From Prevotellaceae bacterium (GTDB lineage Bacteria > Bacteroidota > Bacteroidia > Bacteroidales > Bacteroidaceae), in the NCBI GenBank assembly GCA_029219385.1, contig JAQXTH010000006.1:16903-80902 (forward strand): DNA of 64,000 bases, given 5' to 3'. Positions 6,222 through 53,412 of the stretch are shown piece after piece. The notes under the pieces are model-generated. The model worked only from the letters and a program-made list of their open reading frames with translations. It made no database searches and was not told where the DNA came from. Made by a program: the position numbers and the translations under genes. Within the stretch, counting starts at the first letter, position 1. Each line of letters starts with the position of its first letter.

Positions 6222-7244
6222 TTATTGTTTTTCTGATATTAGTTCGCGAGTTTGTTCCATCAATTCAAAGAGTTTGTCGGCCGTTTCGGCTCGGAGCATG
6301 GCAATGCGGTGTTCTCTAAAGTTTGCAATGCCTTTGAATAGGGGGGTTGCAGCCAAATGGCGTCTCACATGGAGAATGCCCCGATATTCATCGAGATGTT
6401 CAATGCTGGTTTTAACTTGCTGTTTGAGCACGTCGAGTTTCCAATCGGGCGACATGGGGGTGTGGTTGCTCTCTATCGTTTTACTTGTGTCGATTGGCGA
6501 GTCGGGGTGGAGGGCATCGTGTATCTCTTTGAAAATCCACGGACGACCAAACGACGCGCGTCCTATCATTATTGCGTCTACGCCATATTGCTCGAAAGCG
6601 TCAATGGCTTTTTGGGCGCAGTCAATGTCTCCATTGCCTATTATGGGAATGTGTATTTCCGGGTTTCGTTTCACTCTGCCTATGGGTTGCCAGTCGGCAG
6701 AACCGGTATACATCTGTGAACGAGTGCGTCCATGAATGGTGAGTGCTTTTATGCCTTGTTGTTGCAGGAGTGGGGCGAGTTGCTCTATTATTATGTTGTT
6801 GCAATCCCAGCCGAGGCGTGTCTTCACGGTGACAGGAATGCCTACTGCATCGGTCACGGCCTTCACAATGTCAATCATCAGCTCAACGTTTTGTAATAGG
6901 CCGGCTCCGGCTCCTTTTCCGGCAACTCTCTTCACAGGACAACCAAAGTTGAGGTCGATAATATCGGGTTTTGAACGGCTTTCCACGATTTTTGCTGCCT
7001 CGGCCATTGCCATAGGGTCTTTGCCATATATCTGGATTGCAACGGGGCGTTCCTCCTCGCAAACATTGAGTTTCAGGAGCGACTTGTTGACCATGCGCGT
7101 CAAAGCATCACACGAAACGAATTCCGAATAAACCATGTCGGCCCCCATCTGCTTGCACAAAAGGCGGAATCCGATGTCGGTGACATCTTCCATCGGAGCC
7201 AACAACACGGCTCTGTTGCAAAGAGTGATGTTTCCTATATTCAT
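6222..7244 (-). CDS. dusB: tRNA-dihydrouridine synthase (DusB-like)
   Basis: LAPMEDVTDIGFRLLCKQMGADMVYSEFVS, DLNFGCPVKRVAGKGAGAGLL, IHGRTRSQMYTGSADW, GNGDI. Confidence 0.9.
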   Translation of the reverse strand: MNIGNITLCNRAVLLAPMEDVTDIGFRLLCKQMGADMVYSEFVSCDALTRMVNKSLLKLNVCEEERPVAIQIYGKDPMAMAEAAKIVESRSKPDIIDLNFGCPVKRVAGKGAGAGLLQNVELMIDIVKAVTDAVGIPVTVKTRLGWDCNNIIIEQLAPLLQQQGIKALTIHGRTRSQMYTGSADWQPIGRVKRNPEIHIPIIGNGDIDCAQKAIDAFEQYGVDAIMIGRASFGRPWIFKEIHDALHPDSPIDTSKTIESNHTPMSPDWKLDVLKQQVKTSIEHLDEYRGILHVRRHLAATPLFKGIANFREHRIAMLRAETADKLFELMEQTRELISEKQ

Positions 7245-7266
7245 GATTTACAAGAATAGAATTTGA

Positions 7267-8961
7267 CTACTTCATGCTGTTGAGCCACGAGCGAGCTTCT
7301 TCATCGCCCAGTTCGATTGCTCTCTCCAGATTTTTGCGTGCCTCAGTCTTGTTGCCAAGTTCTCCATAGGAAATGCCGGCCAACTTGTAGGAGTCGGGGT
7401 CGTTGGCATCTAGTTTTCTTGCTTGTGCGGCTGTCAGGATTGCTTCTTCGTAGTTGCCTGTGCGGGTTTCGATAAGTGCTTTCTCGATATAATAGACATA
7501 TTCGTTGGGGTTAATGGCAATGGCTCGTTCGATGTCGGCCAAGGCCTGTGGGTAGAAATTAGACTTTATTTCGGCTTGTTCTTTGATATAGAAAAATTTG
7601 TCGTTAAGGTTTCTCAACCCCACTATATCTTGATAGTCCTGATAACCTACTACTGCCTCGCGATAAAAACCATAGCGGTCGTATTGTTGGGCTCGGTAGT
7701 AGACGTAGGGCGCGGCATCTTCCTTATAGGGCTTGATGAAACGCACCACGGCACTGTCGAGCAGAGCCAATATCACAGTAGAGTCGCCACCTGCCATTTG
7801 CAATGAGCGCGATTGGCAAAACAAGTTTTCCGATGAGCGGAAATTCGTCTTGTTTATTTTGTCATAGGTGTCGTAAGCCTCATGATATTTTTTTAAGGCA
7901 TAGAGACATTTGCCTTGTTGCATGAGATAGATTGGCGTGGGCTGTAGTTCGTAGGCTTGTTTTATCTCTGCGAGCGCACGGTTGAGCGTCCAATCTTTGT
8001 AAGGGGAATACGATTTGTCTTGATTGAGATTATAAAGCATCACGCTCATGTTATAGTGAATGTCGGCCTTGTCGGTGCATTTGCCGAGAGCCTCATTATA
8101 GATTTGCTCAGCCTTGGAATATTGTTTGTTGCTTGCATAAAACAGTGCGCTTTGGTTGTAGCCGAAGGAGTTTTCCGGATATTTGGTGATGAAATCGTTG
8201 AGGCTCACGGCATACGATATGGTATCTTCAGAGTTTCGCGCAAAGAGATAGAGGTAGCTTGCGGCCTGTTTCTCATCGTCGGGCAGTTGTTTGGCTATAT
8301 GTATGTTGTTAAGCGAGGGGTCGGCAGCCGACATGGTCGTGATTTTCAGCGCATCGAAAAACTCAATGCCTATGGCATACATGCTTCCGCCGTTGGCGGA
8401 GGCATTTTTTTGTATCACTCCTACAACTTTGTTGTCGGCAGTTAGCAGTGGAGTTCCTATGAGGCTTGTGTCTGCCGTGGCCGACAGTGTATAGTATGTG
8501 AGACCGCTGTATTCGTCGGCCTGTGTCACTTTTACTTCAGCAAGGGGCTTTTTCTTTTCTTGTTTGTTGTTTACTATATATGCTTTGTCGCCTATTGCCA
8601 GTTTTTTGTTTGCCAAAGAGAGGGGAGTGATGTCGGGGGTATTGGCAATGGTGAATTTTGCCACGTCATAGAGGTCGTTGGCTCCACTTATGCGCAGGGC
8701 AGTGTGAGTATTGTTTTTGGGGTCGGTCACCACGGCTTTTACTGCATTGCGCAACAAGGTGTAGGGCGAAACCACGGATAGAACGTTGCTCTCGTTGCTG
8801 CTGTCGGCGGCTACGATAAAACCGGTTGCCCTGCCCGTTGTTTGGTTGTTGATGTCGGTGGCAGTGATGCTTACAATCGGTAATTGAAATTTTTTGTCGC
8901 CTGCTCCATAAGACAAAGTGCAGACAAATGTTGCTATTAAAATAAGATTTAGTATTTTCAT
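7267..8961 (-). CDS. Secreted protein with an N-terminal trypsin/HtrA-like domain (apparently non-catalytic) and C-terminal TPR repeats
   Basis: Signal peptide; TGFIV...VVSPYTLL...YDVAKFTI...TSLIGTPLLTADNKVVGVI fold pattern; multiple TPR motifs. Confidence 0.75.
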   Translation of the reverse strand: MKILNLILIATFVCTLSYGAGDKKFQLPIVSITATDINNQTTGRATGFIVAADSSNESNVLSVVSPYTLLRNAVKAVVTDPKNNTHTALRISGANDLYDVAKFTIANTPDITPLSLANKKLAIGDKAYIVNNKQEKKKPLAEVKVTQADEYSGLTYYTLSATADTSLIGTPLLTADNKVVGVIQKNASANGGSMYAIGIEFFDALKITTMSAADPSLNNIHIAKQLPDDEKQAASYLYLFARNSEDTISYAVSLNDFITKYPENSFGYNQSALFYASNKQYSKAEQIYNEALGKCTDKADIHYNMSVMLYNLNQDKSYSPYKDWTLNRALAEIKQAYELQPTPIYLMQQGKCLYALKKYHEAYDTYDKINKTNFRSSENLFCQSRSLQMAGGDSTVILALLDSAVVRFIKPYKEDAAPYVYYRAQQYDRYGFYREAVVGYQDYQDIVGLRNLNDKFFYIKEQAEIKSNFYPQALADIERAIAINPNEYVYYIEKALIETRTGNYEEAILTAAQARKLDANDPDSYKLAGISYGELGNKTEARKNLERAIELGDEEARSWLNSMK

Positions 8962-10607
8962 TGCTTAAGAAGGGTTTTTGCATTTGATATGGCTGCGTCG
9001 GTTATTATTTCGCCCGATAGCATTTTGGCTATTTCTCCGACTCTTTCTTCATTGTTGAGTTTCTCGATATGAGTATGGGTGGCATCTGTCGTGCTGTCTT
9101 TGTAGACTCTGTAGTGGTGTTGCCCCTTTGCGGCAATCTGCGGCTGGTGAGTAATACAAATCACTTGACGGTCGTGTTGTGTCATTTCGTTCATGAGAAC
9201 AGCCATTTTTTCAGAAATCTTGCCGGAGACTCCCGTGTCTATCTCGTCAAAGATAATGGTAGGCAATTCTTTGTGGAATGACAGCAGGGCTTTCAACGAC
9301 AACATCACGCGCGCCATTTCTCCGCCCGAGGCGATCTTTGAAAGATTGCGGGGTGGCATGTTTTTATTGCTGCTAAAAAGAAAACACACGTTGTCGTTTC
9401 CCCTTGGTGTGAAATCTTCGGTTTTGGATATTTCAACTTTAAAGACCACATCGGGCATTCCCAAAGAGCGAAGTTGAGAGGCAATGTATTCTTCCACGGA
9501 GAGAGCCGCTTTTTGTCGCGACAGCGAGATGCTTTCTGCTGCCTTTGTGACAAGCTTTCTGAGTTTGTCGCACTCTTGTCGCTTTTCTTCGATCAGTTCG
9601 TCACAGTTTGTGATATTGTCTATTTCTTTAGCGGTGGAATCCCTCAATTCAATCAGAGCGGCAACGCTCTCTGCGTGGAATTTCTTTTGCAGCGTATAGA
9701 TTGTGCTAAGCCGATCGTTGACGAAATCGGCTCTTTCGGGGTCGAACTCTATATCGTTGAGTTTTGACGATAGTTCCGAACTGATGTCGTCCAACTCTAT
9801 GTTGCAACTCTCAATGCGAGTGGCAAAGGGGGCTGCCTGTGGATATACGTTTGCTATTCGGTTGAGCGAAGAGTGAGCCGAACGCAGATTGTCGAGCAAG
9901 TCGTTAATGCTTTGGCTTGCGCCATAGAGAGCCTCTTTTATGCTTTCAGCATTGTTTAGCATGAGTTGCTCTTGCTCTAAATCCTCTTGCTCGTGTTCCA
10001 CAAGGTTGGCAGCCGTGAGTTCTTTGTGGTGAAATTGCAGGCGGTCAAGGTCTTCCGCCCGGTTTTTGCTTTGTGTCTCTATTTCGCGGAGTTCTTTTTC
10101 GCTTTTGCGTAGCAAGGCATATTGTGTGGTATATTCGTTGAGCTCGGTTTCGTTGTTTGCCACTGAGTCTATTACATCGAGCAGAAAGAAACCGTTGTTG
10201 AGCAACAGGTTTTGGTGTTGTGAATGAATGTCAATGAGAAGCAAACTGAGGTCTTTCATGGTCGACAGAGCCACGGGAGTGTCGTTGATGAAAGCACGGC
10301 TTTTGCCGGCAGCGGTCAACTCGCGCCTTATGATACATTCGTCTCCGTCTGCGTCAAGGTCGTGGTCTTCAAGAAAAGCGGAGATGTCGGGGTTTGATAT
10401 GGAAAATATCGCTTCGGCCACACAGCGTTTTGCCCCCGGACTTATTGCTGCCGTGTCGGCCCTGCCACCTAAAACTAAAGCCAGGGCACCAAGTAGAATA
10501 CTCTTGCCAGCTCCTGTTTCTCCGGTGATTACAGAAAATCCCGACTCAAAATCAATGTCGAGATTGTCTATCAAAGCATAGTTTTGTATGTGAAGGTTTT
10601 TGAGCAT
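8958..10607 (-). CDS. recN: DNA repair protein RecN
   Basis: MLKNLHIQNYALIDNLDIDFESGFSVITGETGAGKSILLGALALVLGGRAD; IFDEIDTGVSGKISEKMAVLM; ITHQPQIAAKGQHHYRVYK. Confidence 0.97.
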   Translation of the reverse strand: MLKNLHIQNYALIDNLDIDFESGFSVITGETGAGKSILLGALALVLGGRADTAAISPGAKRCVAEAIFSISNPDISAFLEDHDLDADGDECIIRRELTAAGKSRAFINDTPVALSTMKDLSLLLIDIHSQHQNLLLNNGFFLLDVIDSVANNETELNEYTTQYALLRKSEKELREIETQSKNRAEDLDRLQFHHKELTAANLVEHEQEDLEQEQLMLNNAESIKEALYGASQSINDLLDNLRSAHSSLNRIANVYPQAAPFATRIESCNIELDDISSELSSKLNDIEFDPERADFVNDRLSTIYTLQKKFHAESVAALIELRDSTAKEIDNITNCDELIEEKRQECDKLRKLVTKAAESISLSRQKAALSVEEYIASQLRSLGMPDVVFKVEISKTEDFTPRGNDNVCFLFSSNKNMPPRNLSKIASGGEMARVMLSLKALLSFHKELPTIIFDEIDTGVSGKISEKMAVLMNEMTQHDRQVICITHQPQIAAKGQHHYRVYKDSTTDATHTHIEKLNNEERVGEIAKMLSGEIITDAAISNAKTLLKQ

Positions 10608-40508: not shown

Positions 40509-40590
40509 GCCCAGATGGCGGAATTGGTAGACGCGTTGGTCTCAAACACCAATGCCGCAAGGCGTGCCGGTTCGATCCCGGCTCTGGGTA
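40509..40590 (+). tRNA. tRNA-Leu (CAA)
   Basis: GCCCAGATGGCGGAATTGGTAGACGCG; anticodon arm TTGGT-CTCAAAC-ACCAA; T arm GCCGG-TTCGATC-CCGGC; acceptor TCTGGGT. Confidence 0.95.
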
Positions 40591-40591
40591 C

Positions 40592-40627
40592 AAAAAAAGG
40601 GAGCGGAGTAATCTGCTCCCTTTTTTG
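40592..40627 (+). terminator. tRNA terminator
   Basis: AAAAAAAGGGAGC-GGAGTAATCT-GCTCCCTTTTTT. Confidence 0.88.
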
Positions 40628-40722
40628 TGTTTATAGATTTCGCAGAGATGTGTGGAGATACATATAATATTAGCGCAGCTGTCTAAGAGAATCAGTTCGG
40701 CTTCTCAATGAATAATATGACT

Positions 40723-41295
40723 TTAAATGAACTTAATCAACTTGTGTATTATTAGCTTAATTGAAGATGTCGTATTGTATAGTGATGTCTCATGACTTTT
40801 TAGAAATTCTGTAGTAACCTGAAATCTCTTCTCGTCGAAAAACTCACCACCAGTAACCCATTTATAATACGTAGTTGTTAATTCCAGCAAATTCGCTCCC
40901 TTTGTTTTCTCTAAAAACTTAGGAAAAGATTCCTTTATTTCCTTATTTATACAGTCAATAATAAGATCTGCTTTGTGAAATATCATTCTAACTTCTTTCC
41001 TTGCCACTTCTAATTGTATTTCTCCTTTTTGGAGCTTTGAGAAAATCTCCGAGTTGTGTTCATACAAAGCTGATAGTTCTTTTAAATCAGTCACGACAAT
41101 ATCTCGAACAATATCTTTTTTGTTTAAGGCCTTTGTTAAATAAATTACAGCAATCGAAAGAACTATTGTTGCGACTAGCATTAATAAGTCAACAATATTC
41201 ACTTTGAAATCCCATATTCCTTGTATAAAGAGTATAACCATGGCAGAAACAAAGCAACCAGATAGAAAACCAAATAGGCCTATTAAAAACTTCAT
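40723..41295 (-). CDS. Hypothetical membrane protein (two N-terminal TM helices, helical cytosolic domain)
   Basis: MKFLIGLFGFLSGCFVSAMVILFIQGIW...VDLLMLVATIVLSIAVIYLT...; last gene of the island operon. Confidence 0.75.
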   Translation of the reverse strand: MKFLIGLFGFLSGCFVSAMVILFIQGIWDFKVNIVDLLMLVATIVLSIAVIYLTKALNKKDIVRDIVVTDLKELSALYEHNSEIFSKLQKGEIQLEVARKEVRMIFHKADLIIDCINKEIKESFPKFLEKTKGANLLELTTTYYKWVTGGEFFDEKRFQVTTEFLKSHETSLYNTTSSIKLIIHKLIKFI

Positions 41296-41296
41296 A

Positions 41297-41626
41297 CTAT
41301 TTCTTCGTAGGATTCTTAATTTCTTCTATAATTCTTTCCTTTCTAGTCTCGCTTTCTGTTGAAATAAAGACTATCGTATCAAGTACAACATTGGCACTGT
41401 ATTCTATTGATAGTTTCCCGAACGAACCAGAAACAAATGAAGAAGGATAACCCCATACCCCATCAAGGTTTATTTCCAACTTCACACCACGTTGCCTTGC
41501 TTCCTCAAATTTGTTTTTGAGGATTTCTTCATAAAACTGTTGACCAGAGTTTGGTCCATCTTTCCGATACCTAGCACCTGGTGAATCGGAAAAGTCATTT
41601 TTGATGTTAATGCAAATATTATCCAT
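41297..41626 (-). CDS. STAS-like protein (DUF4325)
   Basis: GARYRKDGPNSGQQFYEEILKNKFEEARQRGVKLEINLDGVWGYPSSFVSGSFGKL; overlaps the upstream gene by 8 nt. Confidence 0.7.
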   Translation of the reverse strand: MDNICINIKNDFSDSPGARYRKDGPNSGQQFYEEILKNKFEEARQRGVKLEINLDGVWGYPSSFVSGSFGKLSIEYSANVVLDTIVFISTESETRKERIIEEIKNPTKK

Positions 41627-42662
41627 TTGTTTGATCTTTTATAAGTTCCCAATATAAACACGTTCCTTGAAAATTGCTTTTAAGCTTTTCCGCATCTCTT
41701 GTTTTGAGATTAATTTTAACATCATTACTGATGATATAAGCTCTTCCAAAAACGTGCTGTTGACTATTTCTAGCAATTTGAGGAATTCCTTTTCCTCTTA
41801 TATTGTTATCTATAATCTCCCGAGACTTTATTTTCCCATCTAGCAAATCTTGTACCAAATCTACATTATGTGAAATTCCTATCCAATTTGTCAATTTCTT
41901 ATATTTACTTACAGGTAAGCTATCAAAAATACCAACCCCAAGGTCTATAAATGAATAGCACGTCTTTCCGTCAGGGTCATTATAGGTGTAAAGCCACCAC
42001 TTAGTGGTACCTGCTTGTTTCTTATTTGCGTGGTTGTTAGTGTTAGACATTGCTTCGACAATCATTTCATATAAATCGGAAAAAGGTTCTGTACTTGAAA
42101 ATACATGCTTCGTTCCATAAAGACATGCTTGCTTTGCAATTTCTGGTTGTACTTGAAAATGACTTTCTTTGTGCAGTAAGTTAACGTCCTGCTTTTGTGC
42201 TGACTTCATAAGTTTGCTTGAACTGACAAACTTATAAAACCCTGACTCTGCAAAGAGTTTAAGTAGTTTTGGTTTTTTTGGAGCATTGCCTGACAATTTA
42301 CCATATTTCCCATAAAAATGAGCATCATTAGCACAAGCAACTAATAAGGCTATTGCATCTGGAGAAAGGTTCTGGACATTTTCGATATCCATTATTACTT
42401 TTTCCTTTTTATGCAATAAAGATTTGCAGTCATTAATGTAGCTTACAACCGCATCTGTGTTATCGATAAGAGAAAAATTACTTGGCGAAACCTTTGTAAT
42501 ATCTTTCTTCTCATTAACACGTTTTCTCTCTGCAATATCTAGTTTTCGTGACAAAAGTCTTCTACGTCGCCTCCTTATTGCAAGGAGATGGCGTTTCTTC
42601 ATTTCAGACCTCTCACGCGAAAGCTGATGCTTATAAGCCTTATATCGTTTACTTTTTCTCAT
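41619..42662 (-). CDS. STAS-like domain plus GHKL/HATPase domain protein
   Basis: N-terminal basic region; VIMDIENVQNLSPDAIALLVACANDA...FAESGFYKF (STAS-like); IVEAMSNTNNHAN (N box); FIDLGVGIFDSLP (G1 box); GKGIPQIARN (G2-like). Confidence 0.7.
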   Translation of the reverse strand: MRKSKRYKAYKHQLSRERSEMKKRHLLAIRRRRRRLLSRKLDIAERKRVNEKKDITKVSPSNFSLIDNTDAVVSYINDCKSLLHKKEKVIMDIENVQNLSPDAIALLVACANDAHFYGKYGKLSGNAPKKPKLLKLFAESGFYKFVSSSKLMKSAQKQDVNLLHKESHFQVQPEIAKQACLYGTKHVFSSTEPFSDLYEMIVEAMSNTNNHANKKQAGTTKWWLYTYNDPDGKTCYSFIDLGVGIFDSLPVSKYKKLTNWIGISHNVDLVQDLLDGKIKSREIIDNNIRGKGIPQIARNSQQHVFGRAYIISNDVKINLKTRDAEKLKSNFQGTCLYWELIKDQTNG

Positions 42663-42691
42663 TCAGACATTATAAGGACTACTATCTACTA

Positions 42692-44290
42692 TTATTCAAG
42701 TATTATTTCCCAGAAACCGCCTTTATCGGGACCTACACGATGGAGAAACTTACCACGCATGGCTTCGATATTGCGATAAATCGAAGTTTCGCTAATTCCG
42801 ACGTTATTTGCCAACTCTGCTCTCGAGATATACGGATCTTCTATCATCAGTTCTAATATCTTGATTCTATTAGCTGTTAATGTCTCTCCCAATGCAGCTG
42901 CCTTTTTTCTCAACTTTTCTGTTACTTTGCCATGATTTTCTGCTACCTTTTCTGCTACCTTATTATGGTTTTCTGCTACCTTTCTACCGTTTTCTGTGAC
43001 GTTTACATTCACCCTTTCATCATTTACATTCACCTTTTCACTCACCTTTGGCACTGTAATCTTCAGGATGAACTCGTCAGTCCTAAAAGATGGAATATTC
43101 GCACCATTAGCCTCTTGCTCACGATAGATACGGTCAAAACCCTCGCCGAATTCCTTCACAAAATGATATGCTTTGAGGAATGCAGCTATTTTGGGATTAC
43201 GAGAGAAGTGGGTATGCCGGATATTGTTAGGTTTTACTTGTCCTGGGAGTTTGCCCGGAGACTCGAACACCAACCGATCATCAAACATTTTGATTTGTAT
43301 CTCCGTGCCCTTAATGTTGTAGGCTCGATGGCAACAAGCGTTGACTGTCATCTCTTGAATGACAAACTCAGGATAGTCACGTTTTGTCACGAACTGGGCA
43401 TGTTGTCCTAGAAACGTATGCTCACGAACCTGCGTCTCGATAAACTCAATCGTCTTCTTGACTTGGTTCAAGATGGTTCCCTCAAATGTAACATCCTTGA
43501 TGACATTCATCTCAGCACCCACCTTCTCGTCAACACCTTCATATCTGATGAAACGTGTGCGGGCACGAGGGAAGAACTTCTGGGGATACTTGCCAAAGAG
43601 AAGAATGCAAGCGGTGCTCACCTTCTCTTCACCATTGACCTCCGGTCGAGCCTGCTCACGCTCGGCTGAGCTGATGCGAGCATCGCTCTGCTCTCGTTTA
43701 ATCGCAGCCTTCTTGTTGGGCTTCACAAAACCATTGTTCTCTCGCAAGTATTGCAGGGGACTTTTCCCATAGCCGACCAATTTGGCATAGTCGGCAACGG
43801 CATCCATGTCAATGTCATCGATGGTTGCGTCATATACTGCTGTATCTTCGTAGTAGCGTTCCCCTTTGTCGTACATCAGCTGCACTCGCTCGTCAAACGT
43901 TAGTTTCCGGCTCTTGTCACCTACACGCATAAAGGCTTCATCTGCCTGGTTGGTATGCAGGCTCGAGCTGGCAGGAATCTCCATCAATAGGATACGGTTC
44001 TCGTTCCCATCCTTATCCGTGCAAGGAAGGTATGAGCAAGTCACAGGAACCGATGGATTGCAGAAATCAAACGGCACACGCAGCAGTTCGTTCAACTTCT
44101 CTGTATGCTGGTCAACACCTTCAATCTTCCGAGTCTTATCCGACACGCCTATGGCAATAACACCACCATCAGCATTGGCAAATGCTACAATGGGCACAGC
44201 CAAAGCCTTCGGCTCTATTTGAATGCTCTTGCAATCAAATGTCTGGTCTTCCTTGCGAGTAGTTATTTCTTGTATGGTCATCATAAGCAT
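42692..44290 (-). CDS. AlbA_2/Schlafen-like ATP-binding protein with repetitive linker and C-terminal winged HTH
   Basis: EDQTFDCKSIQIEPKALAVPIVAFANADGGVIAIGVSDKTRKIEG (AlbA_2); ANRIKILELMIEDPYISRAELANNVGISETSIYRNIEAMRGKFLHRVGPDKGGFW (wHTH). Confidence 0.85.
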   Translation of the reverse strand: MLMMTIQEITTRKEDQTFDCKSIQIEPKALAVPIVAFANADGGVIAIGVSDKTRKIEGVDQHTEKLNELLRVPFDFCNPSVPVTCSYLPCTDKDGNENRILLMEIPASSSLHTNQADEAFMRVGDKSRKLTFDERVQLMYDKGERYYEDTAVYDATIDDIDMDAVADYAKLVGYGKSPLQYLRENNGFVKPNKKAAIKREQSDARISSAEREQARPEVNGEEKVSTACILLFGKYPQKFFPRARTRFIRYEGVDEKVGAEMNVIKDVTFEGTILNQVKKTIEFIETQVREHTFLGQHAQFVTKRDYPEFVIQEMTVNACCHRAYNIKGTEIQIKMFDDRLVFESPGKLPGQVKPNNIRHTHFSRNPKIAAFLKAYHFVKEFGEGFDRIYREQEANGANIPSFRTDEFILKITVPKVSEKVNVNDERVNVNVTENGRKVAENHNKVAEKVAENHGKVTEKLRKKAAALGETLTANRIKILELMIEDPYISRAELANNVGISETSIYRNIEAMRGKFLHRVGPDKGGFWEIILE

Positions 44291-45021
44291 TAATAAACTA
44301 TTGGGAATTCTTGAACTATTTTTCCATTTATAAGTTTGCCATTTTTCCTTTTATTACGTTTAATTCCATCACATCCCCATGTTCCCCATTGTTTAAAAAA
44401 GAATGGTATGTTTAGTTGATGAGCTTGGTTCATTATGTTTACGACCCATTTTTCATTCATGGGCCTAGCAGAAACACCACTTTCACCACCAACAATAATC
44501 CAATTTATTCCATCTAGTTCCAATTCTCCTAAATCTTCCAGAAGGGGCTCACATGATAAAAATTTCACTTTCGCATCAAGGTGTCTAATTGAATCAATCC
44601 GTTCAATAGCATTCCTATTTTCTACAGTAACACCGATCCATGCGTTAGGTGGAATAACTCTGCTTTCAAAATACTCTGCCATCCGCTTCGCTCTTTTCGT
44701 TAGTATTTGATATGTATGTTGAGGAGTATCTTTAATAACGTTAAACACCTTGTCAATGAAATTAAAAGAAATTTTCTCATTGAACAAATCGCTCATAGAG
44801 CAGACAAAAACAGTTGATTGCTTTCTCCAGTTGTATGGTTCCAACAAATCTTCCGGATGTTCTGTGGGTATGAAGTTGTTCGCATACTTTGGATTACCCA
44901 TAGCAAACAAACGCCTTGTCATCATCTCTGCATAACAATGACGACATCCTTCAGAAATCTTATTACACCCTGTGACTGGATTCCAGGTTCGTTCTGTCCA
45001 TTCTATTTTGGTTGTTCTCAT
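44290..45021 (-). CDS. DUF5131 / phage Gp37-Gp68 family three-Cys-motif protein
   Basis: IEWTERTWNPVTGCNKISEGCRHCYAEMMTRRL; NWIIVGGESGVSARPM. Confidence 0.9.
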   Translation of the reverse strand: MRTTKIEWTERTWNPVTGCNKISEGCRHCYAEMMTRRLFAMGNPKYANNFIPTEHPEDLLEPYNWRKQSTVFVCSMSDLFNEKISFNFIDKVFNVIKDTPQHTYQILTKRAKRMAEYFESRVIPPNAWIGVTVENRNAIERIDSIRHLDAKVKFLSCEPLLEDLGELELDGINWIIVGGESGVSARPMNEKWVVNIMNQAHQLNIPFFFKQWGTWGCDGIKRNKRKNGKLINGKIVQEFPIVY

Positions 45022-46172
45022 TTCAGTTCTATTTTATATATATTTGCCTTATGAATATTTGTTGCCTGTTTGTTGTAAGTGCCCAAAATCTTAACTCTAT
45101 TCTCTTTTATCATAGAATCCATTACTTCAACAAACAATTTGGGCTCACAGCCGCATTCTAAGGCATAATCCAATCCTGTAATATTGTCTTTAATGGTAGA
45201 ATGAAGTATTTTTTCTTTGATTTCCTTAATTATACGTGTCTTCTTATTTGTATATAGTGGGTCGTAAAACAGTGTACCAGGTTCAAAATCATTATAAAGA
45301 TTACAATTTGACTCTCCTGCTTGTCTATCTTCCTTCCAACAAACCTTGACAAACTTTTCCATTCCTAGCGAATGAGCAGAACCAAAAATTAGCCCATAGT
45401 AATTGCTTCCTTTTTGAATTGTAAAAGAATGTAGATAATACTTTTTATCTACAGGAATCAAACTCCTAAAATAATCCGTTATAACCTTATGACATTCCTT
45501 TGGTTGTGTTTCATCAAATGAAATTTTATTTTTTTTGAAATAGGCTGTAACAGCAGGTAAATCCTTAAATCGTTTAATAAAAGAAGATGCTATGAAGAAG
45601 ATAAAGTCTGTTGTCGGTGAATTAACCAATTTAAGAAAAACATCATCATTAATTTGCTTAAAACCATATTGATCAAGCAAAATAAATTTTGCATATTTTG
45701 CATTGGACAATATCTGATTTAATCTTCTGTTGTTAATCAATGAGGAGAAATCTTGTGATTCAAAAAAGAATGCATTTTGAAAAGGACATACCTTTTCTAT
45801 ACATTGTGATTTGCATAGAGTAAATTCTGCCGACACATTAGATTCTAGTTCTGTCCTCTTAACTTCATCTAATTCATTATAACCAAATGTAATAAATGGG
45901 ATTCCTCTCTTCAACAATGATTTGCAATGTTGCCGTTTATCACCTCGCGCTTCTTGGAAAAGTATGATTGGAGATCCTGGGTGTTGGGCGATATCTTTAC
46001 CACTTCCAGCAAACATATCATATACAAATATGTGCGAGATGAATTTGTTGTGAACAAACACAGGGTACCATTCACGGAAACATTGCCGAAATATTTCTAA
46101 TTTCAGCATTGTTTCTTCAGTAAATACATCTTTATTTATATCCTTTTTAGCCATATAGCCTAATCCACTCAA
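45018..46172 (-). CDS. tcmP: Three-Cys-motif partner protein TcmP
   Basis: KLEIFRQCFREWYPVFVHNKFISHIFVYDMFAGSGKDIAQHPGSPIILFQEA; KFILLDQYGFKQI; overlaps the DUF5131 start by 4 nt. Confidence 0.85.
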   Translation of the reverse strand: MSGLGYMAKKDINKDVFTEETMLKLEIFRQCFREWYPVFVHNKFISHIFVYDMFAGSGKDIAQHPGSPIILFQEARGDKRQHCKSLLKRGIPFITFGYNELDEVKRTELESNVSAEFTLCKSQCIEKVCPFQNAFFFESQDFSSLINNRRLNQILSNAKYAKFILLDQYGFKQINDDVFLKLVNSPTTDFIFFIASSFIKRFKDLPAVTAYFKKNKISFDETQPKECHKVITDYFRSLIPVDKKYYLHSFTIQKGSNYYGLIFGSAHSLGMEKFVKVCWKEDRQAGESNCNLYNDFEPGTLFYDPLYTNKKTRIIKEIKEKILHSTIKDNITGLDYALECGCEPKLFVEVMDSMIKENRVKILGTYNKQATNIHKANIYKIELK

Positions 46173-46177
46173 TCTAA

Positions 46178-47035
46178 TTATTCCAATTGCTTTCTATATA
46201 CAGCATCTAATGTTTGGCCGTCTTTATCTTTCCAGACGAGCCAACCGTTATTGCTACTACCAATGCAGAAGTCGGCAGCTGTGCTGGGGCTTGGGAAAGT
46301 CTTGTCTGATTCCAATTCCAACTTGTCACCATTGTTGATGGTATAATCCTTGAGAAGATTCTCACGTTTCTCTTTCCATGTAAACGATGGAACAGACGAC
46401 TTTGCAATAATGCTACCCTTTAAAACTGTAAATCCATTAGCATCATAGAAACCTTTGGCGTTACAACCACGCCCCTTAGTATAGAACAGATGCTCTTCCT
46501 TTGGCTTTGCCACATCAAATATATTGCAACCAATAAAAGATGTTAGGAACTTCACATCTTCAAAGAATCCCTCCATATCATCTTTTCTATACTCAGGTAG
46601 ATTAGGTGCCTTTGGCGTTTGCTTATTCTCATTTAGCACAAAATTATTGGAAGCCTTTGCCTCTGCGATTGCCCTATGCTCCAAGTATTGCACATCAGCC
46701 TTTGTCATCGCAGCATCTTTCGAGATAAACAGCAATGCCTTTTGCCAAAACACCTTTTTGCTATCGTGGTCTTTAACGCGTTCACGAAAGTTCTCCGTTT
46801 CACCAATGTAAGCCTTTGGCTTGGTTGCCTCATCCTCACCCAATAAGATATAAAATGCAGGTGTCTGCAACTCCTGTCGCTCATTCAGAATAGAAAGATT
46901 AGAACGAGGAATCACATACATCTGGCAAATCTTATTGCTGATGAACACATACTGAGTCCCCTTCGGATCTCCATCTATCAAATATGTCGTTACTGTTTTG
47001 CCCATGAGACTATATTTCAATTTATGCGTTTCCAA
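46178..47035 (-). CDS. GIY-YIG nuclease-family protein with C-terminal DUF4357
   Basis: FYILLGEDEATKPKAYIGETENFRERVKDHDSKKVFWQKALLFIS; LEHRAIAEAKASNNF; C-terminal AADFCIGSSNNGWLVWKDKDGQTLDAVYR. Confidence 0.85.
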   Translation of the reverse strand: METHKLKYSLMGKTVTTYLIDGDPKGTQYVFISNKICQMYVIPRSNLSILNERQELQTPAFYILLGEDEATKPKAYIGETENFRERVKDHDSKKVFWQKALLFISKDAAMTKADVQYLEHRAIAEAKASNNFVLNENKQTPKAPNLPEYRKDDMEGFFEDVKFLTSFIGCNIFDVAKPKEEHLFYTKGRGCNAKGFYDANGFTVLKGSIIAKSSVPSFTWKEKRENLLKDYTINNGDKLELESDKTFPSPSTAADFCIGSSNNGWLVWKDKDGQTLDAVYRKQLE

Positions 47036-48635
47036 AAATCTCAGATTCCAATTCTTTATATATTTGTGTATCTTCTGTAATTAATGGAACTATTGTATCC
47101 CTAAGGAAAGCATCTTTTGTGTTTCCACATTTCGTTAATAACAATAATCGCTTTAGTTCTGTATAGATCTTTCCACTTGCGGATTTTATATCGTCTGTAG
47201 GATTGCCTCTTCCAATACTTTCAGTTATCGCTTGTTTCTTAAAGTTAAGGCACTCTGTAATTTTGTCTTCTTGACTCAGAGAAGTGCATAACTTTGTGAT
47301 TATCTCGTCATCTAAAAGATAGCATTCTATATGTCGCTTGTTTAGTACTTTAATACCTTTTGTTTTCAAATCATTTATTTCTCCTTCACTTTTATCATCT
47401 CGATCTACAAATTTTATTATTGTAGAATTTTTAAGAACTTGTGAGATGATTTTCATACTAATGTTGTTTTCATCTTCAAGTTCAGAACAAGAACCAATTG
47501 ACACAAATGAAGTATCAGGGTATTTTGAGGCAAAAATACGACTATAAATCTGAGCATCAAAATTCTTATAGGCTCTTCCTTGTACAGTTCCTTCACAAAA
47601 AACAACTCTTTGTGGAGCAATCAATTTCGCAAAGTCACCAAATGCAAGTTCTAAGAATTTATTCCAGATAGTAGCATCTATAGTTGAAGGTCGAATAACG
47701 ACAGAAGCATCGAAATCCATATCTGTAAAATTCAAAAAGCAAACTGTATTTGGATATTTTTCTTCCAATTCTTTTGCAGCTTTAAGCATTCCAATGGAAT
47801 GAGTTGATAACCATAATTGGGAGTTATTAGGAATTAAATTGTACAATTCAGACAACAATTTTGCTTGTAAAGCTGTATGCATATGAGTTTCCGGCTCATC
47901 AATACAATATACGGTATTATCAAAATAAGTAGCCTTGATTACCAAATCAAGCAATAAATCAAAAGCCGATTTTTCACCAGCAGATAGGTTCTTGTAATGG
48001 AAACTTTCAGAACGTCCTTTCGTGAAATAGAAACTGCCATTAGCAAGTGGATCTCCGATGGAGGCTAATTGCAAATCATCAAAAACATTATTAAGCGAAT
48101 TCTTTATTTTACCAGTCAATTCTTCTCTCAGGTCTTTTACAGACTTATTGTCATTCTTTGAGTTAAAGACTCCAGACAATGTATTTGATACCAACCTTTG
48201 GTAATTCTCTGATACGGACATGTCTGTATTCATCAAAGTATCAAATTTCATTTGATCTTTAGGATTACCGAGCCGTGATAAGCTTGATGTTGTAAAATCC
48301 GGTTCATTTCTATGGGCAGTACGAAAATAAAAACGTCCATGAATACTATTGCGATCATTCAAATCTGTGTCGTATGTCGATAATTGTACTTGATGAGAAT
48401 ACCAGTCACCATTTTCTTCTGTCTCTATATCACTTTTTTTGAAGTAATAATCTTTATTGCCAACTCTGTTAAAACCACGCCATTTATACCAATGGTTCAG
48501 GGCTTCAAATACAGAGGTTTTACCACACCCATTAGGTCCTACAAGAATAACAAGCTTTGCAGTTTGAGGAATTCCTGTAATAGTTAGATCTGTAAATCGC
48601 TTGAACTTATTTAATTTGACTTCTCTTATTTTCAT
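47022..48635 (-). CDS. AAA ATPase fused to a TOPRIM/DUF4435-like C-terminal domain (OLD/PARIS-like architecture)
   Basis: LVGPNGCGKTSVFEAL (Walker A), LSAGEKSAFDLLL, YCIDEPETHMH (Walker B), LWLSTHS; C-terminal VVFCEGTVQGRAY...IIKFVDRDDKSEGEI...RHIECYLLDDEI. Confidence 0.8.
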   Translation of the reverse strand: MKIREVKLNKFKRFTDLTITGIPQTAKLVILVGPNGCGKTSVFEALNHWYKWRGFNRVGNKDYYFKKSDIETEENGDWYSHQVQLSTYDTDLNDRNSIHGRFYFRTAHRNEPDFTTSSLSRLGNPKDQMKFDTLMNTDMSVSENYQRLVSNTLSGVFNSKNDNKSVKDLREELTGKIKNSLNNVFDDLQLASIGDPLANGSFYFTKGRSESFHYKNLSAGEKSAFDLLLDLVIKATYFDNTVYCIDEPETHMHTALQAKLLSELYNLIPNNSQLWLSTHSIGMLKAAKELEEKYPNTVCFLNFTDMDFDASVVIRPSTIDATIWNKFLELAFGDFAKLIAPQRVVFCEGTVQGRAYKNFDAQIYSRIFASKYPDTSFVSIGSCSELEDENNISMKIISQVLKNSTIIKFVDRDDKSEGEINDLKTKGIKVLNKRHIECYLLDDEIITKLCTSLSQEDKITECLNFKKQAITESIGRGNPTDDIKSASGKIYTELKRLLLLTKCGNTKDAFLRDTIVPLITEDTQIYKELESEIFGNA

Positions 48636-48726
48636 TCTTTATCCTCCCATCTTTTTATAATGCGAAGAAATCTGTCTTGCATTATCTTTTTTAGTATTGG
48701 ACATCATGATAGAGTCTTTACCTTTT

Positions 48727-51700
48727 CTACTTCAAATACTTATCCAAAATTTTTTGCTTCACAACTATATAATCTTGCATTTTTTTCTTCAGGTCAGCTA
48801 TCTCATTCTCCAGTTTAATGAGCTGTTGAGCCACTTTGTTCTGCGTTTCAATGTCTGGCAACATGATAGAGAGAGCTTTGACACGTTCTGTTGACGAACG
48901 GTTAGAACGTGAGAACCGTTCCGCCTCACCTGCTTTCAGAAGAGGATAGACCAAATACTTTGGATTGACAACGGTTTCATCCAGGACTCTGATTACGCCA
49001 CAATGGTCTGTTGGATTGAACGGTTTTTCGGCCTCTTGGTAATTAACCATCCAGTCGCCATCTATGCCCCATAGAACAGATGGCTTCGAAAAGTCAGAAA
49101 GCACAGAGTTACTGGTTTTACCAAATGGCTCAAACACATTGGCACTAAACACGTCATACACTCCGTCTTTCACAATATCAGACTTTAAGACACGGCGGCC
49201 AATGGATATATCAAACAAGTCTGCACGGTTGAGACTGATGGAATTGTTGGTCTTCATCTGCGATTGACGCATCAATTCTTCGATTTCCTTTTCTATCTCA
49301 ATTATACGAGACGAAGCATTGATATAATCGTTGTCTTGCTCTTGACATTCCTCTGCGATTTTTCTTTGCACCTCCACAAGTGGAGCCTTCGGTATTAAGA
49401 AGTTTGGTATGACCTTCTTGTCACCACGAGGCATCTTTAGTCCAGTTTTTCCTACCATCATGTAGTCGAAGAAAATGTCAGATGAAAGGATTGCATACAG
49501 GTATTCTGACAAATAATCTGATGGCTTGGCATTTCTGAACACAAGAACATCATTTGAACACCCTCCGTCGTGTTCGGCAAGCCATATCTTTTTTAGATAA
49601 GGTCTGATGTTTGAAACCAGAATATCATCCTTTTGATACTTTGTTACATTACCTACCTCGGGCACATCGTTATATGGAGTTATTCCTGCACGATTTTGCA
49701 GCATGTTGGCTGTCGTTACATAACTTGACGGTGATATGCTAGAATATGCTACCTTTTCAGAAATATATGGGCTTACAACGCCTAATTTTTCTAATGGGTA
49801 TTTGCTTTGTATCTGGGGATATGATAGAACCGGGGTTGTCTTGATAGACTTTGAAAAGTCTGCCCGTTTGAAATCAATTAAATCTGCAAGATCATATACT
49901 TCAACATAATCCATCAACTCATCAGGAACAGAAACTTCTCCATTCGCGAAGTTTTGTCGTATTATGGAGTTAATCTTCAAATCATCTTCCAAATCTTGTG
50001 GATTGAATAAGGGCGTTTGAATACCCTTTATACCTTCAATTTGATGCATAGTGTCATCGTCTTCTCCATTGCCTTCATCGTCAGAGGTACTTTGCGTTGA
50101 AACATTCAAATACTTAATACCCTCGTTGCCCTTGCTGTCACTCCATTCATAACCCAAGAATCGCTTAATGTTTGTTGTTCCTGAGGGCGACTTGACGATA
50201 ACCACAGGATTGGGCGTAATTTTTGCTAATATGAAATAATATACCTTTTCTTTCTCGATGGCAATGACGAATTGCAAGAAAGCTTTAGTTCCTTGCCTTT
50301 TCTTTTCATCCTCAGATAGTTTTCTATATGCTTGAGTATCTTGGCGGCCCTTGAATTTTGCCCTGATTTCCTTTGCTTGGGTACAAACTCCCTTCATCGC
50401 GTTGCGTTGATTGCCAAAGAAGGCTGTCTTATAGGCTTGGATGGTATCATGTTCCATAAAGTTCTCCGTCATATTGCCAGAAAGGAATGCATGATAATCT
50501 TCCCAATTGAAATCGCAGTGGTCACAATATGCTTGCAGCAAATCTGTGTCATCATAGATGTCATTGGACTCGCACTTTTCATAATTACAGAACCAGCAAT
50601 TAACCCTATTCTGATAGTGCTCTGCATCGGGCGTATTGGTTTCCTTGCGTCGTAAGAACATCGTAACAGTATTGGTTCCTGTCTTGCCAAACGTTCCACT
50701 ACCAAACTCTACCAAAGCCACGATGTCGAACTTTTGGAGAATTATTTCACGCCCCTTGGCATAAATGCCACCTTTGTTTAGAACAGAGACAGGAAGTATG
50801 ATACCTGCAACACCACCTGCCTTTAATAACTGGGCAGCACGCTCGATAAAGAATATCTCAATGGCATTATTCTTGGCAATATTAAGGCCATCATTGAAGA
50901 GAGAATAATGCTTTCGTTGACTCTCCGTCAGGGTCTCTAAGAAACCTTTAACCGAATAAGGTGGATTAGCTATCAGAACATCGTATGACGCCTCTCTAAC
51001 ATTTTCATTTGGAACCAAAGCATCAGAATAAATTATCTTCGTCTCATCATGACCATACATGAAGGCAGAAACCTTAGACACCTTAGACAGGCGGTATTCC
51101 TTTTCTATACCTGTGATATGTGCATAATACTCATTTAATGGTATTGAGGGACGATACTTCTCCACGTAATCTTTTATCTGTACTGCATATTCTGTCAAGA
51201 AATGTCCTGCGCCACAAGCGTAGTCTATAGCAGAAGGGATATCCTCGCAGTTCTGAATAATCCGTTCCAAAGGAAGTGAAGAAACGAGGAAGCGCACTAT
51301 TGGCATAGGCGTGAAGAATTGGCCTTCGCTCTGCTTGACACCTTTATTCAGGAAACCTTCAAACAAATCGCCAAGCAACTGGTTTTGATCAGAGTCTTTC
51401 AGTTTAATGTCCTGTAACATCTTGACCACCTTCAATAAAATGGCTGCATTCTGTTCAAAGAGTTTTTTATTGTGTACGCTGATGAAAGAAAAGTCGTTGT
51501 CAGAGAAGAACTTCAGGGCACGGAAATAGCTTTTGATGGTCTTTTTTGTCGCATCTGGGTCATTCTTGAATCGACGGAATGCTTTCTCAATCTCACCATC
51601 CTCTATGTAAGTAACATCTTCATTCAAGAAGCGTTTCATACCATCACGATAAAGACGCTGCAAGCGGTCTTGCAAGCGGTAATCATCATCATATGCAGAA

Positions 51701-52611
51701 CCTTTCCAGTAGAAATTCAAGTCATCAGGATTGCTTGTCTCATCCACGACTTTTGCAAGGAAGAGGTTCACCAGTTTGTCAAAAGCATTCTCATATCCTC
51801 CAACATTGTGTTGACGCAGAATCAAGGCGAACTCATTATACTTTTTCTGAATGGTATCGCTGTCAACAGACTTCAGGTCTTTTGTTGTGTACTTGTTCTT
51901 ACCAATTCTGTATGGTTCTATTTCGTCCTCGAAAAGACCTCGCGTTGCATAATCATCATGGTAGGTTTCATGCCATACTCTATAAAGTTTCTTGTTGTTG
52001 TCTGCATCTTTGTAGCTCCTAGCAGTTTCTTCATTGGCTAGTTTCTCTTCGTTATCTTGGACATTAATGAGATGATAATTTTGTTCTATCCTTCCATCAA
52101 TAATATCAGCAGTATATAGACAAAGGAACTTCGTGGAGCGTTCCTGTTGGAAATAACTAAAGAGTTGGGCACCATCTTCTTTTGTGTCTGCCCATGCTCC
52201 ATCAAACTCTCGTCCCCAAGTCTTACATTCAATAATCAACAAAGACTCCTTATCCTCGTCTGAGCCATCAAAACCACCATTTTTAAAGGTCCTGACCCAA
52301 ACATCCGCATAGCCACCTTTGGCTGTATGTCCCAATTTCCATGCAGGTTCTAACTCGATATGAATAGGATTGTAGCCTTTCCGTAAAAGGCGATCGACAC
52401 AATGTAACACGACAAGATTTTCTGGTTCCAAGAGATTGCAAGTCGTTTCTCGACCAATAGAAATACCACATTCGCTATAGAAGATATGTCCGTCACCACT
52501 AATATCAACCTTTAGTGGCTCGTTAACATTCTTATATTTTTTTGTATATATGTTGCCATCGTGCTCAAATTCAAGCAAGTTTAGCAATTCTTTAATATTG
52601 TCTTTAGTCAT
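48727..52611 (-). CDS. Single-chain restriction-modification enzyme: PD-(D/E)xK nuclease, N6-adenine methylase and HsdS-like specificity domains
   Basis: GGYADVWVR...SLLIIECKTWG (D..ExK); SEGQFFTPMPIVRFLV, AIDYACGAGHFLTEYA, DVLIANPPYSVKGF (N6 MTase); two C-terminal TRD-like segments each followed by a coiled coil. Confidence 0.9.
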   Translation of the reverse strand: MTKDNIKELLNLLEFEHDGNIYTKKYKNVNEPLKVDISGDGHIFYSECGISIGRETTCNLLEPENLVVLHCVDRLLRKGYNPIHIELEPAWKLGHTAKGGYADVWVRTFKNGGFDGSDEDKESLLIIECKTWGREFDGAWADTKEDGAQLFSYFQQERSTKFLCLYTADIIDGRIEQNYHLINVQDNEEKLANEETARSYKDADNNKKLYRVWHETYHDDYATRGLFEDEIEPYRIGKNKYTTKDLKSVDSDTIQKKYNEFALILRQHNVGGYENAFDKLVNLFLAKVVDETSNPDDLNFYWKGSAYDDDYRLQDRLQRLYRDGMKRFLNEDVTYIEDGEIEKAFRRFKNDPDATKKTIKSYFRALKFFSDNDFSFISVHNKKLFEQNAAILLKVVKMLQDIKLKDSDQNQLLGDLFEGFLNKGVKQSEGQFFTPMPIVRFLVSSLPLERIIQNCEDIPSAIDYACGAGHFLTEYAVQIKDYVEKYRPSIPLNEYYAHITGIEKEYRLSKVSKVSAFMYGHDETKIIYSDALVPNENVREASYDVLIANPPYSVKGFLETLTESQRKHYSLFNDGLNIAKNNAIEIFFIERAAQLLKAGGVAGIILPVSVLNKGGIYAKGREIILQKFDIVALVEFGSGTFGKTGTNTVTMFLRRKETNTPDAEHYQNRVNCWFCNYEKCESNDIYDDTDLLQAYCDHCDFNWEDYHAFLSGNMTENFMEHDTIQAYKTAFFGNQRNAMKGVCTQAKEIRAKFKGRQDTQAYRKLSEDEKKRQGTKAFLQFVIAIEKEKVYYFILAKITPNPVVIVKSPSGTTNIKRFLGYEWSDSKGNEGIKYLNVSTQSTSDDEGNGEDDDTMHQIEGIKGIQTPLFNPQDLEDDLKINSIIRQNFANGEVSVPDELMDYVEVYDLADLIDFKRADFSKSIKTTPVLSYPQIQSKYPLEKLGVVSPYISEKVAYSSISPSSYVTTANMLQNRAGITPYNDVPEVGNVTKYQKDDILVSNIRPYLKKIWLAEHDGGCSNDVLVFRNAKPSDYLSEYLYAILSSDIFFDYMMVGKTGLKMPRGDKKVIPNFLIPKAPLVEVQRKIAEECQEQDNDYINASSRIIEIEKEIEELMRQSQMKTNNSISLNRADLFDISIGRRVLKSDIVKDGVYDVFSANVFEPFGKTSNSVLSDFSKPSVLWGIDGDWMVNYQEAEKPFNPTDHCGVIRVLDETVVNPKYLVYPLLKAGEAERFSRSNRSSTERVKALSIMLPDIETQNKVAQQLIKLENEIADLKKKMQDYIVVKQKILDKYLK

Positions 52612-52670
52612 ATAGTGTGGTTTTCTTATTCCGTTCTATTTTTAGAAAAAAATACATCTCTTTTATGTAA

Positions 52671-53081
52671 TCATCCAATTTTGGCTGATTCAGATTCAGG
52701 TATAATGCCTCGTTCTGTGAGCATCTTATGCACAGCGGCATTATTATCGACATATTCCCGTGTGATGGATGCTTCGCCTTGGAGATTTTTTGATTGAATA
52801 TTTACATTGGTCATTTCATTCGCAAGATCTTTCGCCATTGTGTCAATACTCGATGTGATTTTCTTCTCAGCATCGAAATCCACTTCCAGCAGGTCTTTGA
52901 TGTCAACCTGTAACAGGCGAGCGATTTCTACGAATTGTGCCATGGAGGGCTGTATCTTGTTGGTTTTCCACCGTGAAACAGTCATGTCGGTGACACCCAT
53001 CTGTTCGGCAAGCCAACGGTTGGTGATTTGCTTGTCGGCCAATACCACTCTGATTCTGTTTTGGCAATCTTTCTTGGTCAT
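52671..53081 (-). CDS. XRE-family HTH regulator with DinD-like C-terminal tail
   Basis: NRWLAEQMGVTDMTVSRWKTNKIQPSMAQFVEIARLLQVDIKDLLEV (HTH); AKDLANEMTNVNIQSKNLQGEASITREYVDNNAAVHKMLTERGIIPE (DinD/BRO-type tail). Confidence 0.8.
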   Translation of the reverse strand: MTKKDCQNRIRVVLADKQITNRWLAEQMGVTDMTVSRWKTNKIQPSMAQFVEIARLLQVDIKDLLEVDFDAEKKITSSIDTMAKDLANEMTNVNIQSKNLQGEASITREYVDNNAAVHKMLTERGIIPESESAKIG

Positions 53082-53412
53082 CTATTTTGATTTTAGCTAT
53101 TTACATGTGCAAAAATAAACATAATTTGTTAAGCTGCCCAAGTTGATGTTGAATAATATCTCGTTTTTGGCACTTTTTGTGTTTCTAACTCCTTGTTTTG
53201 CATACGACCCGACAAAATTACACAGTGTCTTTTTGCATTTAGTACATCTCTTTGCTATATATGCGCAATGTGGACTAAACTTATTTCTCTTTCGCCAGTA
53301 AATGAATCAATGCTATAGGTTGAGTGTTGGCAGGCTGTTGATGGCGAAAAAGAATATCAACTTGTCATGATTTTACATCTGTAGAAAATCACTGTTTCGT
53401 TTTCTCATACAC

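Follow-up and report, generated by a model that had tools for sequence, protein, structure and literature searches.

The window, by which we mean the whole 64,000-nt stretch of DNA analysed here, carries three tightly packed genes on the minus strand. The first encodes a kinase-like protein of 347 aa (K, 42662-41619), recognised through an AF2 model, profile matches, Pfam matches over family members, conservation of the ATP site, and hhalign comparison. The second encodes a STAS-like DUF4325 protein of 109 aa (S, 41626-41297), recognised through PF14213, hhalign comparison to VapS, and alignment column counts, and the third a membrane protein of 190 aa (T, 41295-40723), recognised through AF2 and hydropathy. 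K and S overlap by 8 nt (41619-41626), and a single nucleotide (41296) separates S from T, exactly as a preliminary description of this DNA had given strand and coordinates.

Upstream of the trio, co-directional defence-type genes detected with Pfam, PADLOC, and NCBIfam occupy 42692 to 53081 of the minus strand and encode HTH, type IIG RM, AAA ATPase (AriA/PtuA-like), GIY-YIG/DUF4357, TcmP, DUF5131, and AlbA_2-HATPase_c_4-wHTH proteins, with the last of these genes followed by 29 nt and then the start of K. Beyond T, a plus-strand tRNA-Leu(caa) (40509 to 40591; ARAGORN, Rfam) forms the island border. The low-GC, co-directional defence-type island (40600-53100) extends from this tRNA-Leu to methylmalonyl-CoA mutase genes; its GC content is 38%, compared to 34% in the trio and 46-50% in the flanks, and no integrase was found in it. 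The 3' end of the tRNA-Leu is present only once in the genome (87.6% complete), so that a search for an att repeat at this tRNA yielded no att site. The preliminary description had the trio closing a defence-type operon with no sigma factor nearby; in agreement with this, the window copy forms the last part of the defence-type island (Pfam, PADLOC), and none of the ten island and trio proteins was recognised by Pfam as a sigma factor.

Several island genes resemble candidate defence systems. DUF5131 and TcmP (44290-46172) match both subunits of the PADLOC candidate system PDC-M30, and the GIY-YIG/DUF4357 protein (46178-47035) corresponds to the PADLOC candidate PDC-S14; an 89% identical relative of the latter lies at L006:14527-15354, about 6 kb from the trio copy of that locus, in a different arrangement. 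The C-terminal part of the AAA ATPase (47022-48635) weakly matches DUF4435 (AriAB/PtuA-like), and this is possibly a one-gene PARIS-like protein. The upstream defence-type genes are not common to trio relatives, and represent context outside the conserved module.

The STAS proteins of CapK/CapS and of VapKSC are phosphorylated by a STAS-GHKL kinase, whereupon CapS lets go of DNA and VapS frees the PIN toxin VapC (PMC13373217, EMBO J 2026). Given that CapKS controls adjacent immune operons (PMC13373217) and that the window trio follows the last gene of a defence island by 29 nt, K and S could be read as regulating the transcription of the nearby defence genes in the manner of CapKS, T being an accessory. 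However, we consider this very unlikely: Pfam detected no HTH in K or in S, which at 109 aa consists of STAS alone, and the N-terminus of K was modelled as a single helix; moreover, the trio is last and not first in the operon, and its relatives have no constant downstream operon.

Conservation and distribution of the trio

Relatives were scanned for with the DUF4325 alignment alone in a genome collection (85,488 species) and in IMG/VR viral contigs, which returned 388 and 170 DUF4325 relatives, respectively; we examined the top 80 from each set. K lay directly upstream of DUF4325 at 153/160 of these loci (76/80 genome and 77/80 viral), and at 150 of the 160 (73/80 genome and 77/80 viral) DUF4325 was immediately followed by an ORF of 100 aa or longer. 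Given that the loci were chosen by DUF4325 alone, these counts indicate that the three-gene arrangement does not reflect chance. The scan pattern was specific for this DUF4325 subfamily, and the percentages therefore describe the subfamily and not all DUF4325 proteins. The preliminary description had called for a genomic-neighbourhood search and regarded rare co-occurrence of the three genes as an argument against its proposal; the search showed that the three-gene order is kept without the rest of the island.

Trio loci were found in at least eight phyla (Bacteroidota, Bacillota, Patescibacteria, Pseudomonadota, Acidobacteriota, Latescibacterota, Spirochaetota, and Campylobacterota) as well as in prophages. 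Within the phylum of the window, K was matched in 5 of 399 sampled genomes, namely the window's own and four others; these four relatives shared 22-27% identity in K and, in otherwise unrelated surroundings, retained all three genes. The pairwise distance matrices of the three proteins were correlated (K-S 0.63, K-T 0.74, S-T 0.50; permutations at most 0.06), showing that K, S, and T are inherited as a unit, and the 41 sampled trio Ks formed one clade (support 100/99). Identification of the trio as a widespread, unnamed bacterial and prophage module is well supported.

No function is attached to the trio in PADLOC-DB, NCBIfam, or PHROGs. K and S had no match in PADLOC-DB, T had weak single-member matches only, and the E. 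coli trio proteins had no match in this database either. The module is common, judging by the numbers of close DUF4325 relatives from a single scan of genomes (388) and of viral contigs (170), and is missed by PADLOC-DB. In one locus, on an Acinetobacter wuhouensis plasmid (L167, ~6270-10135), ISAba14 directly precedes a short annotated K (492 bases) and a second ISAba14 copy follows T; this trio looks broken.

Architecture of K, S, and T

K comprises a polybasic N-terminal helix (residues ~2-51), a STAS region (~54-155), and a GHKL ATPase/kinase region (~173-341), in accordance with its AF2 model (pLDDT 92), in which a long helix of ~50 residues precedes a STAS-like and then a GHKL-like region. 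The window K alone had no Pfam match in a single-sequence search; across its family, 21/109 members matched HATPase_c or HATPase_c_2, and 5/109 matched STAS. The ATP site was nearly invariant over 121 trios, including the N box (E203 in 120/121, N207 in 121/121), the G1 box (D240 and G242, both 121/121), the G2 box (G292, 121/121), and GT333-334 (119/121). An additional residue, W222, was conserved in trios only (121/121). The N-terminal extension had a median length of 59 residues and a median net charge of +15, and its charge was +5 or higher in all 121 trio Ks. The preliminary description had recognised the STAS segment and GHKL N and G boxes of K, which both stand, but had missed this conserved basic helix; it had also named the lack of an HATPase fold in the 42 kb ORF as a counterargument, and the AF2 model, profile matches, and Pfam all point to a GHKL-like fold being present. 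Given its intact N-box glutamate, K fits a predicted kinase.

Searches of the K profile against the PDB returned SpoIIAB (E 5e-4) and also RsbW, with weaker matches to STAS proteins, while a fold search matched RsbV and, separately, the catalytic domains of histidine kinases, all with E values of at least 0.001. The SpoIIAB and RsbW matches could suggest a classical anti-sigma/anti-anti-sigma switch acting on a sigma factor encoded elsewhere in the genome. We regard this as extremely improbable, as no sigma factor occurs among the window neighbours or beside the first relatives, K has a STAS region of its own and groups with VapK, and phages carry the module from one phylum to another.

S had been described as a stand-alone STAS-like DUF4325 protein, and it indeed passes the cut-off for PF14213 (E 1.6e-9). 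Its residue S62 aligns with S48 of VapS, a column occupied by Ser/Thr in 108/121 trios and in 26/28 VapS-like proteins; the remaining 13/121 trios have another residue at this position, which counts against a phosphorylation switch. The adjacent S63 is Ser in 120/121 trios and has no counterpart in VapS. Given that S62 falls on the VapS S48 column and that S63 is near-invariant, either residue may be the putative phospho-acceptor. Trio S proteins share an N-terminal motif (~DFS..PG.RY..DG..SGE.F, residues 11-31) with an invariant Arg that is absent from VapS; the trio-only residues in this region are R19 and F31 (both 121/121), G28 (120/121), and S27 (115/121). This motif may mark a T- or K-binding surface. 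S is probably an antitoxin as well as the predicted phospho-acceptor of the system.

For T, the AF2 model (pLDDT 92) shows two N-terminal TM helices (~2-24 and ~34-60) and then a cytosolic helical bundle, as anticipated in the preliminary description. T is the most variable of the three proteins; hydropathy revealed an N-terminal hydrophobic segment in 96% of 121 members, with usually two hydrophobic segments in the genome set and one in the viral set. Profile, PADLOC-DB, and PDB fold searches returned no convincing family match or homology to a known toxin, which counts against T being a toxin, and the PDB fold search found unspecific helical bundles only. Two candidate identities were rejected: the MotB-like Zorya protein ZorB, with ZorB2 matched by 1 of 65 members (4.6e-4) and ZorB1 by one (0.005), and an SLATT 2TM effector, given an hhalign probability of 0.4% between the T family and five SLATT_4 proteins.

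By analogy with the third gene of VapKSC, T is probably the effector, that is, a candidate toxin, and could be freed by the switch. A membrane anchor combined with a cytosolic helical bundle is also receptor-like, and partner-switching STAS/GHKL systems often have membrane inputs. T could thus be a membrane sensor that signals to S and K in a stressosome-like relay, the output being a soluble process or a gene elsewhere, for example, with K and S acting on a prophage repressor or a host target; that prophage copies of the trio often adjoin repressors is in line with this. We consider this reading the main rival but an unlikely one, given that copies on prophages, plasmids, and chromosomes have no conserved output gene beside them, that K has a candidate sensor helix of its own, and that the gene at the position of T in VapKSC is a toxin.

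Genomic addresses and a proposed phosphorylation switch

Among 5,426 complete E. coli genomes, 20 carried one trio type (~99.7% identity or more), in all cases on the chromosome. In the three that were inspected (D3, 2014C-3097, and TB4019), the trio lies in P2-like prophages between gpA (replication endonuclease) and gpQ (portal), with companion genes that differ among the three. T of the D3 prophage has the accession WP_119743262.1, and the corresponding S is WP_042005410.1. The gpA-gpQ interval of P2-like phages is the old/tin hotspot, which harbours validated anti-phage systems and also non-defence cargo (PMC9122126); the latter counts against a defence role. P2 old/tin and other systems of this hotspot share the address of the trio, whereas their proteins are unrelated to it. 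A three-gene system without clear domains has been validated against P1 (PMC9122126), and there is a risk that it is a member of the trio family. The E. coli trio accessions were not named in the open-access literature searched, and could appear in a preprint or closed-access paper.

In other viral contigs, 24 of 150 neighbouring genes (from up to 57 contigs) matched phrog_4 (transcriptional repressor) and 15 matched phrog_6201 (CI-like), counts which may overlap. The trios of Marinobacter phage AS1 and Francisella phage KIRK are likewise placed near repressors; DUF4325 is mentioned by name in two papers of the literature searched, and one of these lists the KIRK trio without a function. The lambda rexAB operon, which includes a small membrane protein, resembles the trio in address only, that is, beside CI-like repressors. 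Outside prophages, neighbours were mixed, consisting of integrases, RM genes, and ordinary genes; some copies reside on plasmids and genomic islands, and many chromosomal copies lie among ordinary genes, which counts against an anti-phage role. The hotspot position of the E. coli trio (PMC9122126), the CI-like repressor neighbours, the defence-type island of the window, and homology to VapKSC support an anti-phage reading.

Occurrence on prophages, some plasmids, and genomic islands, together with a three-gene layout resembling toxin-antitoxin systems, would also suit a plain addiction or maintenance module of mobile elements with no phage-specific role. We find this quite improbable, given that a kinase devoted to the system, its ATP site conserved, is more than such a module would need and implies a regulated trigger, and that the E. 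coli trio sits in a hotspot of validated anti-phage systems (PMC9122126).

Instead, we favour reading the trio as a self-contained anti-phage module that resembles toxin-antitoxin systems and is switched by phosphorylation, and assign a probability of roughly 0.6 to the mechanism as a whole. It builds on what was observed in sequence or model, namely the three-gene unit, the folds, the intact ATP site of K, the kinship of K with VapK and of S with VapS, the anchoring of T in the membrane, the co-evolution, and the hotspot address. Given that the third gene of VapKSC encodes a toxin released by phosphorylation of the S protein (PMC13373217), S would by analogy restrain T, K would phosphorylate S, and T would thereby be freed. 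At rest, S would sit on the cytosolic part of T and prevent its activity. K would be activated by a trigger that its polybasic helix helps to sense, most likely nucleic acid that phage infection produces or uncovers; judging from the anatomy of the proteins, this helix would sense nucleic acid or acidic lipid, and T would act on the membrane. K would then phosphorylate a Ser/Thr at the start of S helix 2 (S62 or S63), the phosphorylated S would let go of T, and free T would damage or depolarise the inner membrane, so that the infected cell would stop growing (abortive infection). Whether the trio represents a widespread and as yet undescribed class of phosphorylation-gated toxin-antitoxin immunity seems to us an evenly balanced question. 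In such a class, a GHKL kinase with a polybasic helix would sense infection otherwise than through the aromatic ssDNA pocket of CapK/VapK, DUF4325 would be the antitoxin and the membrane protein the effector, and prophages, P2-like and others, would carry the system to compete with other phages. Given its presence in E. coli prophages, the module is directly testable in laboratory E. coli.

Comparison with known kinase-STAS systems

The preliminary description had compared the trio to SpoIIAB/SpoIIAA. These proteins and RsbW/RsbV share with it the principle of a GHKL kinase acting on a STAS partner, but the trio K has its own STAS, there is no sigma factor, and a membrane protein is the third member. 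According to hhalign and the literature, the closest relatives are instead VapKSC and CapKS (PMC13373217), and the switch principle can therefore no longer be called undescribed, as it had been; the trio itself lacks a PADLOC-DB catalogue entry. A trio with a membrane protein, distinct K and S, and a hotspot position was not found in the literature searched, while the switch principle was published in 2026. It is almost certain that the trio belongs to the kinase-STAS superfamily that includes CapK/CapS and VapKSC.

The diversity of this superfamily was apparent in a PF14213 census of 399 Bacteroidota genomes (loci L173-L235), which recovered four layouts. VapKSC-type loci, with K, a DUF4325-type VapS, and PIN, numbered 19 (L175-L181, L192, L193, L203, L204, L207, L209, L211, L218, L222, L225, L232, and L234); the K of L177 had a weak, unrelated PADLOC-DB match only. 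These loci came via the DUF4325 census, whereas VapS-fragment searches of plasmids and viral contigs returned no usable VapKSC locus. In a second layout, common in one Bacteroidota genus, GHKL and a C-terminal DUF4325 are fused in one protein of ~340-430 aa, many with an N-terminal HTH (L182-L202 and L233; for example, L187:685-1701 and L191:1468-2499), and these fusions resemble single-chain kinase/STAS regulators. Six loci (L210, L212, L213, L215, L216, and L221; also L206, L208, and L214) paired K and S with neither a recognised VapC nor a T of the trio type, and their outputs may differ; in L215, the profile overlooked a PIN-like ORF. The trio was the fourth layout.

CapK is an HTH-STAS-GHKL kinase and CapS a STAS-wHTH repressor (PMC13373217). 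The trio resembles this pair in combining a STAS-GHKL kinase with a STAS partner near immune genes, and in having an N-terminal extra part before the STAS domain of the kinase. In contrast to CapK/CapS, K lacks an HTH and S a wHTH, and the operon includes a gene for a membrane protein.

VapKSC, whose operon protects against phage Bas42 (PMC13373217), has the same gene order of kinase, STAS protein, and third gene. K is homologous to VapK (hhalign 99.5%, E 3.9e-22) and S to VapS (hhalign 95.4%, E 2e-8), and Escherichia VapS (9z7o, E 0.013) was the sole notable match of the DUF4325 profile in the PDB. However, the third gene of the trio encodes a membrane protein and not the PIN toxin VapC, no VapC-profile (PIN-type) match being found among all ORFs of 165 loci. 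Trio K has a polybasic helix of ~59 residues before the STAS region, where VapKs mostly have 5-28 residues; S has the extra N-terminal motif (R19, S27-G28, F31); and the sampled trio Ks fall in their own clade, outside that of VapK. Activation by ssDNA was shown for CapK and inferred for VapK (PMC13373217). The aromatic residue at alignment column 98, which by our mapping is likely VapK F54/CapK W68, is F/W in 14/17 VapKs, is likewise conserved in 8/9 other Ks, and is F/Y in only 3/121 trio Ks, a difference that counts against the proposed switch. Given that a membrane protein replaces the PIN toxin, that K carries a +15 basic helix, and that the probable ssDNA-sensing aromatic residue is missing, the trio is not VapKSC. 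With its membrane protein, the trio would add a third type of output to a kinase/STAS immune switch reported so far with the repressor CapS and the PIN toxin VapC, apparently together with a different sensor in K. It also suggests a candidate role, that of a phospho-switched antitoxin, for the Pfam family DUF4325, which the literature hardly covers.
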